Origin: Cyclobacteriaceae bacterium
Lineage (GTDB): Bacteria; Bacteroidota; Bacteroidia; Cytophagales; Cyclobacteriaceae
NCBI GenBank assembly: GCA_947457095.1
Contig: CANGUK010000010.1
Coordinates: 1-38,264 of the forward strand
Length of the DNA: 38,264 bases
Reading direction: 5' to 3'
Position numbers and translations under genes: made by a program. Shown here piece by piece: positions 3,980-4,813 of this stretch; position 1 is the stretch's first letter, and every line of letters starts with the position of its first letter. The notes beneath the pieces were generated by a model. That model worked only from the letters and a program-made list of their open reading frames with translations, searched no databases and was not told where the DNA came from.

Positions 3980-4053
3980 GGGCCTATAGCTCATTCGGTT
4001 AGAGCAACTGACTCATAATCAGTAGGTGCTTGGTTCGATTCCAAGTGGGCCCA
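3980..4053 (+). tRNA. tRNA with CAU anticodon (Met or Ile2/lysidine type)
   Basis: Cloverleaf: acceptor GGGCCTA/TGGGCCC, anticodon arm CTGACTCATAATCAG, T-arm CTTGGTTCGATTCCAAG; CCA not encoded. Confidence 0.9.
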
Positions 4054-4054
4054 C

Positions 4055-4197
4055 TTCATATTCAGGCACTTATTAGTAAATAACTCTAAGTTCCTTTTTC
4101 ATTTGCACAACTTTTTCAAAAAAACTAAGAAGTGAGCAACTGACTCCCCCGATCCTTCGGGGCAGTAGGTGCTTGGTTCAATTCCAAGTGGACCCAC
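4055..4197 (+). mobile_element. Remnant module: terminator-like hairpin, vestigial GIY-YIG ORF 3' end, tRNA 3'-half copy
   Basis: TTCATATTCAGGCAC...CCTTTTTCATTTGCACA shared with 4198-4252. AACTTTTTCAAAAAAACTAAGAAGTGA (NFFKKTKK*) resembles the end of the intact GIY-YIG ORF (FLINKAKT*). The tRNA 3' half has a hairpin in place of the anticodon. Confidence 0.6.
4134..4197 (+). repeat. tRNA 3'-half pseudo-copy with anticodon loop replaced by hairpin
   Basis: GAGCAACTGACT[CCCCCGATCCTTCGGGG]CAGTAGGTGCTTGGTTCAATTCCAAGTGGACCCAC compared with the intact tRNA at 4002-4054. Confidence 0.85.
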
Positions 4198-4330
4198 TTC
4201 ATATTCAGGCACTTACGAGTTTTCTAGTCGAGGTGCCTTTTTCATTTGCACATCATTTTCACTAAATTAGAGATAGGCTAAGAAGCCAAATCCAAAATTG
4301 GAAATTATCTCAACTTTTTAATTTTTAACT

Positions 4331-4624
4331 ATGTGCTTCTGCTATATTTTGTACAGCCCATCTTCAAACAAATTTTATACAGGAATTACTCAGGAATCTG
4401 TTGAAGAAAGATTGGTTAAACACAACACTAAAGCCTATGGAAACCATCGGTTTACAGCCATGGTATCAGATTGGGAATTATATCTTTGCATAAAGGCTGA
4501 ATCCATTTCTCATGCTAGAAAAATGGAGGTGTTTATCAAAAGAATGAAAAGCCAAGTTTTTATTAGGAAACTCAAAGATGTGCCCGAAAACCTTCAATTT
4601 CTGATCAACAAAGCTAAGACCTGA
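4331..4624 (+). CDS. Stand-alone GIY-YIG nuclease family protein
   Basis: CYILYSPSSNKFYTGITQESVEERLVKHN matches the GIY-YIG fold N-terminus; 97 aa; stop codon abuts the tRNA 3'-half copy. Confidence 0.9.
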   Translation: MCFCYILYSPSSNKFYTGITQESVEERLVKHNTKAYGNHRFTAMVSDWELYLCIKAESISHARKMEVFIKRMKSQVFIRKLKDVPENLQFLINKAKT

Positions 4625-4686
4625 GCAACTGACTCCCCCGAGCCTTCGGGGCAGTAGGTGCTTGGTTCGATTCCAAGTGGGCCCAC
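4624..4686 (+). repeat. tRNA 3'-half pseudo-copy with anticodon loop replaced by hairpin
   Basis: GAGCAACTGACT[CCCCCGAGCCTTCGGGG]CAGTAGGTGCTTGGTTCGATTCCAAGTGGGCCCAC; T-arm and acceptor 3' strand identical to the intact tRNA. Confidence 0.85.
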
Positions 4687-4690
4687 AAAG

Positions 4691-4727
4691 AATCCCCTTC
4701 AAAAATGTTTTGAGGGGGATTTTTTTG
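4691..4727 (+). terminator. Rho-independent terminator
   Basis: AATCCCCTTCAAAA-ATG-TTTTGAGGGGGATT followed by T-run. Confidence 0.85.
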
Positions 4728-4737
4728 TAATCAGGCC

Positions 4738-4813
4738 AAGACCTGCTGCCGCGGGCAAGACGTAGAGACAGGAAGAAAAAACTCCTTTGCGTCTCTGCGC
4801 CTTTGCGAGGAAA
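4738..4813. repeat. Low-copy intergenic element of the 'CTTTGCGTCTCTGCGCCTTTGCG' type
   Basis: CCTGCTGCCGCGGGCA plus GTAGAGAC...GTCTCTGCGCCTTTGCG; resembles dispersed noncoding repeats I associate with Bacteroidota genomes (from memory). Confidence 0.45.

Follow-up and report, generated by a model that had tools for sequence, protein, structure and literature searches.

Free-standing GIY-YIG nucleases linked to tRNA genes are an already known kind of protein, and the best precedent for the modules described here, whose own homing endonuclease is putative, is SegB of phage T6. SegB cuts inside tRNA genes, where it prefers the sequence RAWTSGAAC, which we read as the T-loop consensus of tRNAs in reverse complement, and through recombination it causes the tRNA-segB segment to be amplified in tandem (PMC13096335); another paper also lists its target in the tRNA region (PMC2988022). 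By analogy, the same logic may apply to the modules reported below; their nuclease is likewise a GIY-YIG protein, free-standing and located among tRNA genes. However, SegB is borne by T-even phages and is reported to prefer no tRNA isotype, whereas the modules are chromosomal, code for proteins of 75-100 aa and fall into isoacceptor-specific clades. They also contain tRNA copies with palindromes, which the passages on SegB consulted here do not describe (PMC13096335).

Other systems share individual traits with these modules. tRNA-integrated genomic islands (tyrosine recombinases) also duplicate the tRNA 3' end at their far end, but unlike them the modules have no integrase, measure 0.1-0.5 kb, have copies on both sides of the tRNA and form arrays. 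REP/REPIN sequences with RAYTs combine a small nuclease gene with short palindromes, an arrangement comparable to that of the non-tRNA GIY-YIG clades mentioned at the end of this work; yet RAYTs are HUH enzymes, whereas the present modules pair a GIY-YIG nuclease with a tRNA as the repeat. The closest solved structures are those of UPF0213 and SLX1, and the likeness extends to small single-domain proteins. SLX1, however, has additional domains and acts in repair as a structure-specific nuclease. To our knowledge, UPF0213/SLX1 proteins have not been described as located in tRNA modules. In the open-licence literature, searches covering Bacteroidota and pseudo-tRNA gave no account of GIY-YIG modules linked to tRNAs in the genomes of cellular organisms.

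Organization of the locus

The window (the whole stretch of DNA analysed, 38,264 nucleotides of a Cyclobacteriaceae bacterium, contig CANGUK010000010.1) contains an intact tRNA gene with a CAU anticodon on the + strand, delimited at 3980..4054 by ARAGORN and at 3980-4053 by Rfam (69.7 bits). Its GGGCC acceptor suggests tRNA-Ile2 rather than tRNA-Met, and it is the cognate tRNA of the modules. On the same strand it is followed by module 1 (4055..4197), module 2 (4198..4686), and a terminator (4687..4727). Each module opens right behind a tRNA 3' end and closes, again at a 3' end, with a partial tRNA copy, which in module 1 runs from the 3' strand of the D-arm to the acceptor end (4134..4197, +) and in module 2 was located by repeat comparison (4623..4686, +), the two copies being 95% identical. 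Two repeats in the window, one of 82 nt (91% identity, 4116-4197 versus 4605-4686) and one of 104 nt (84% identity, between 4020 and 4163), correspond to this arrangement. The intact tRNA and the two tandem modules ending in tRNA 3' copies, as given in an earlier note made from the letters alone, are thus both borne out.

Module 2 is of the autonomous type. Its terminator-like 5' end (AGGCACTT...GAGGTGCCTTTTTC, 4198..4251, +) equals the plain tRNA terminator allele of the relatives L105 and L106, and it carries an ORF for a stand-alone 97-aa GIY-YIG nuclease (4331..4624, +), whose TGA stop (4622-4624) shares bases with the beginning of the tRNA copy. Module 1 is ORF-less and consists of a terminator-like 5' end, an 8-codon vestige and the tRNA 3' copy; compared with module 2, it retains both ends and lacks ~346 nt between them, which agrees with the internally deleted copy proposed in the earlier note and supports the view that it behaves as an ORF-less derivative. 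The GIY-YIG ORF is the only one of at least 60 aa wholly within the modules, so no integrase is found among ORFs of that size inside them. Rfam detected no group I intron family, and, the CAU tRNA being intact, its anticodon loop is uninterrupted. Chance can be ruled out as the origin of this architecture, because the same one recurs at orthologous and nonorthologous tRNA loci in many species.

The GIY-YIG protein

The translated ORF matches Pfam GIY-YIG (PF01541), scoring 38.7 bits where the cut-off is 22.6, as anticipated from its sequence in the earlier note, and this is the sole Pfam match of the protein, with no HUH (Y1) transposase. Residues Y5, Y16, G18, R27, H31, N32, and E66 are invariant in 17 family members, K70 is also listed among the family-invariant residues, and the conserved GIY-YIG active-site residues (Tyr, Tyr-x-Gly, Arg, His, Glu) are all present. 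Values of dN/dS against the window copy were 0.09-0.12 where measurable, and the range was 0.05-0.22 where dS was unsaturated. The active site is intact, and the ORF is under purifying selection.

In profile comparisons, the nearest solved structures were those of UPF0213 (1zg2 and 1ywl, E of about 1e-13), followed by SLX1 (E of about 1e-9), with I-TevI far behind both. The window protein is therefore nearer to UPF0213/SLX1 than to SegB, to which no sequence relationship was found. Searches of phages, plasmids and PHROG with the window protein gave no match, so carriage by a phage or a plasmid was rejected for it. An Ala-type relative had only weak, partial PHROG matches to homing endonucleases, and queries made as artificial consensus sequences for the Leu type and the Ala type gave distant matches in Rhizobium phages only.

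The orthologous locus across Algoriphagus

The genome belongs to the genus Algoriphagus, throughout which an HAD-hydrolase gene and the CAU tRNA are linked. Among 30 orthologous loci, 13 are empty, 6 contain a GIY-YIG gene, 4 have fragments only and 7 are undecided, the contig ending near the tRNA or no tRNA being reached; module presence is patchy. The empty sites that the earlier note had proposed to look for therefore exist. In L101, L107, and other relatives with an empty site, nothing separates the tRNA from the terminator AATCCCCTTC...GAAGGGGATT, the same one that lies behind the last copy in the window; in L102, the tRNA is also followed directly by the terminator, with a short fragment further on. 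The terminator at 4687..4727 is thus in its ancestral position, and the suggestion that it was the original terminator of the tRNA holds. The CAU tRNA itself is identical in sequence between the window carrier and the empty relatives.

A terminator also forms the module's 5' end (TTCATATTCAGGCACTT...AAGTGCCTTTTTC); in L105 and L106 it follows a module-less tRNA, implying that alleles with different terminators recombined through the tRNA. L110 has two ORF-less modules with ordinary intergenic DNA and the same right-hand boundary, TGAGCAACTGACT. The identity of the nuclease tracks that of the neighboring HAD gene (rho 0.69, for nonindependent pairs with one genome per species), so that vertical inheritance with losses suffices at the window locus; this comparison showed no sign of recent transfer between species there.

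Distribution in the genus, the phylum and beyond

The genome of the window is a draft, 83.6% complete, in which two other small GIY-YIG loci lie directly behind tRNA-Ala(GGC) and the initiator tRNA-Met, also with altered tRNA copies. The Ala(GGC) locus (contig C36, L001) has a duplicated GIY-YIG gene together with hairpin-bearing tRNA copies; the initiator-tRNA locus is on contig C4 (L002). Over the genus, an intact tRNA lies directly upstream of the nuclease gene at 37 of 61 loci, always on the same strand, and further loci have fragments only. UvrC and the GIY-YIG proteins of ~460-476 aa were never near the tRNAs listed in five genomes of the genus that have few contigs.

This type of nuclease is present in 158 of 248 Bacteroidota genomes. 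The number of copies reaches 21, tandem arrays hold 2-8 of them, and about 20 isoacceptors are in use; ORF-less copies and broken ORFs are common. Among 86 loci examined in detail elsewhere in the phylum, an intact same-strand tRNA lies no more than 250 bp away on either side in 72, and a tRNA or a fragment of one is present in 82; this sample is biased upward because the loci were picked by a profile built from tRNA-linked members. The association of a GIY-YIG-only module with tRNAs, read in the earlier note from a single locus, hence recurs at many of them. Beyond the phylum, in the Patescibacteria L231, L232, and L233 (Woesebacteria, Levybacteria, and Giovannonibacteria), the nuclease gene abuts tRNA-His or tRNA-Asn in mirror order, and at L231 the D-arm of a 5' tRNA copy contains the palindrome CCTGCCTGCCGGCAGGCAGG.

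Palindromes in the tRNA copies

Both tRNA copies of the window have a palindrome in place of the anticodon loop, a feature absent from the earlier account. The CATAAT of the loop is swapped for CCCCGA-TCCT/GCCT-TCGGGG, giving perfect palindromes of the form CCCCGA-N4-TCGGGG: CCCCGATCCTTCGGGG in module 1 (4147..4162) and CCCCGAGCCTTCGGGG in module 2 (4636..4651), both assessed by a hairpin test and by covariation. The anticodon arm is replaced in 29/29 distinct segments, namely those flanking copies with recognizable sequence on both sides of the arm. Entire anticodon arms are exchanged for palindromes, as in an Ala case where CTACACTGGCAGTGTAG has become TCCCGATAGCAATCGGGA. It is the T-loop rather than the anticodon arm that is interrupted in Leu copies and in Asp/Gly copies of other classes, while the Leu copy in L063 has an intact T-arm and no anticodon arm; the T-arm rows of L087 and L005 were excluded from this comparison as artefacts of the T-loop regular expression. 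One exception to the loss of the site is L176, where the second tRNA-Ser is intact.

The replacement segments form hairpins in 30 of 38 cases at p <= 0.02, and the window-type hairpin has been kept through compensatory change (7 cells, a number reached in 0/500 shuffles; in slid controls such change was absent except for one cell). The possibility that the palindromes are peculiar to tRNA copies was rejected, since they are dispersed genome-wide, though concentrated at this locus. Palindromes of these types occur at 12 sites of the genome that contains the window versus 1 in the control, and palindromes of the form TCCCGA-N1-8-TCGGGA occur in 228 of 248 Bacteroidota genomes, many of which have tens of copies (maximum, 111 per genome) compared with ~1 in the reversed control.

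A. kandeliae has 31 sites of one palindrome type, 10 of them in this single locus. There, 5' copies of the tRNA lie upstream of it and 3' copies downstream, the former stopping and the latter starting ~12 nt to each side of the anticodon loop. The shared stretch of ~30 nt centered on the anticodon is a candidate site for the nuclease, and the boundaries of the copies would fit the extent that a homing site should have.

One nuclease lineage per tRNA

Setting the GIY-YIG phylogeny against module position, as the earlier note had advised, revealed protein lineages that are tRNA-specific. Each tRNA label with at least two rows is one clade in the tree of the genus, with 13 changes for 13 groups compared with a shuffled mean of 54.1, and in the phylum tree there are 26 label changes for 15 labels versus 69.4 after shuffling. 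Leu-linked proteins fall in one starred clade in 13 of 14 cases, and Met-linked proteins cluster. The window-type nuclease is sister to the tRNA-Thr type, and both tRNAs share the anticodon arm GAGCAACTGACT..AATCAGTAGGT. A nuclease phylogeny mirroring the similarity between tRNA types was nevertheless unsupported, as protein and tRNA distances did not correlate (rho 0.009), individual cases such as initiator/elongator Met and Ile2/Thr excepted. Clustering by tRNA type can also reflect long vertical residence.

Interpretation of the modules

We give an even chance to the reading in which the module resides in tRNA genes much as a homing endonuclease would, is amplified locally, and has one nuclease lineage for each tRNA. 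In this reading the nuclease would cut or nick its cognate tRNA gene, close to the anticodon arm in the case of the window type. The break would then be repaired by recombination between copies of the tRNA, which could both copy the module into a module-less allele, as in homing, and build tandem arrays; the extra copies may survive through a kind of immunity, the palindrome removing the nuclease site. Speaking for this reading are the empty and remnant alleles, the adjacency to same-strand tRNAs that UvrC and the larger GIY-YIG proteins lack, the tRNA-specific clades, the arrays, the replaced anticodon arms, the boundaries of the A. kandeliae copies, the low dN/dS and the precedent of SegB. 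On sequence grounds, the similar modules across Bacteroidota suggest a class of minimal parasites of tRNA genes that has gone undescribed. A broader proposal, which we advance tentatively and with the chances somewhat against it, is that these are phylum-wide selfish elements of less than a kilobase, whose proteins of 75-100 aa, GIY-YIG domain only, would each recognize one isoacceptor gene (or its tRNA) and neutralize duplicated sites by swapping an arm for a palindrome, a built-in mark of site immunity with no separate recognition domain.

A real weakness of the homing reading is the unchanged intact tRNA of the carrier. Alterations are confined to the extra tRNA copies and, because the intact tRNA of the carrier equals that of the empty relatives, the presumed target is unprotected in the carrier. 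Also counting against it are the sufficiency of vertical inheritance, the closer similarity of the protein to SLX1/UPF0213 than to SegB-type enzymes, the searches of phages and plasmids that gave no carrier of the window protein, the lack of correlation between nuclease and tRNA distances other than clustering by type, and the upward bias of the phylum sample. The interpretation of the earlier note is itself partly supported: the empty sites, the recurrence at tRNAs, the tRNA-specific lineages and the ORF-less module 1 bear it out, but nucleases of the window type keep to their own tRNA and diverge in step with the neighboring HAD gene; moreover, the tandem arrays look more like local amplification than the repeated insertion behind the tRNA that the note had envisaged.

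Vertical inheritance is the core of another explanation, in which a GIY-YIG gene with an unrelated cellular function was trapped by tRNAs early in Bacteroidota, replication slippage between tRNA repeats gave rise to arrays and pseudocopies, and dispersed palindromes landed in them by chance. The agreement with the HAD gene and the dispersal of the palindromes within the own genome and over 228/248 genomes fit it well, but about 20 isoacceptors, each with its own clade, a patchy presence, the replacement of the anticodon arm in every bracketed segment and the concentration of palindromes at the locus, as in A. kandeliae, do not, and we regard it as unlikely, although with a real chance of being right. 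The tRNA-specific lineages would equally suit a toxin with a decoy, in which the GIY-YIG protein cleaves the RNA of the cognate tRNA and a co-oriented, transcribed copy with an uncleavable hairpin restrains it, forming an addiction module beside its target. Such a system would be consistent with a tRNA copy that lies behind the ORF, overlapping it on the same strand, with copies that fold stably, and with an arm-replacing hairpin maintained by compensatory change. However, a toxin needs no adjacency to the tRNA gene, 5' copies exist upstream as well, ORF-less copies and broken ORFs are common, and the structures solved for GIY-YIG relatives belong to enzymes that act on DNA; taken together, these points make a toxin decidedly unlikely.

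The similarity to SLX1/UPF0213 can be turned to yet another use if a structure-specific GIY-YIG enzyme of the SLX1 kind acted on hairpins formed by tRNA arms or palindromes and swapped one for the other, in which case tRNA copies and the GIY-YIG genes within inverted repeats would be parts of one REP-like system. Whole anticodon arms exchanged for palindromes, as in the Ala case, a separate GIY-YIG clade among dispersed inverted repeats, and the same palindrome type in a tRNA copy of the Patescibacteria are in line with it. Palindromes are also found in genomes with no match to the nuclease profile, though, and we consider such a system very unlikely. Duplication of a tRNA attachment site by a site-specific recombinase acting in trans, close to the integrative-element analogy of the earlier note, could account for a duplicated tRNA 3' end together with an empty site, but it is hardly credible for a module without an integrase whose tRNA copies lie on both sides of the tRNA, vary in extent by clade and carry palindromes. 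Attachment-site duplication of the integrase type was accordingly rejected, given the lack of an integrase and the copies flanking the tRNA on both sides.

Returning to the homing-endonuclease-like resident, if the cleavage is true, the modules would hold diversified natural nucleases of less than 100 residues for about 20 tRNA targets, informing how a bare GIY-YIG domain gains specificity, and would offer a model for the persistence of a parasite in an essential single-copy gene. Small GIY-YIG genes of Bacteroidota are abundant and mostly without a stated function, and the link to tRNAs gives a large subset of them a testable target each. The palindromes that replace tRNA arms raise a new question.

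Reading frames and repeats near tRNA genes

The modules explain tRNA fragments, as well as chimeric ORFs read through tRNAs. At L042, L044, L075, L091, and other loci, open frames traverse the tRNA and continue into the GIY-YIG gene (e.g., NGAVVQLVRMPACHAGGRGFESRPFR from tRNA-Asp), which probably leads to chimeric proteins being misannotated.

Algoriphagus also has a separate clade of stand-alone GIY-YIG genes (L038-L040, L043, L045-L047, L051, L057, L066, and L076) that lie inside dispersed inverted repeats, TGTCAGTCCGAGCGAAGTCGAGGAC / GGCTTCGACTTCGCTCAGCCTGACA and GTCATTTCGACCGCAGGGAGAAATCTC / GAGATTTCTCAG..TCGAAATGAC, an architecture resembling that of REP/RAYT with a different nuclease. 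Another dispersed repeat, of the type CGCCAAGGCGCAGAGGCGCAAAG, is found just downstream of the tRNA locus in the window (4747-4800) and in L102, L104, and L107, and in some species it is interrupted by palindromes.
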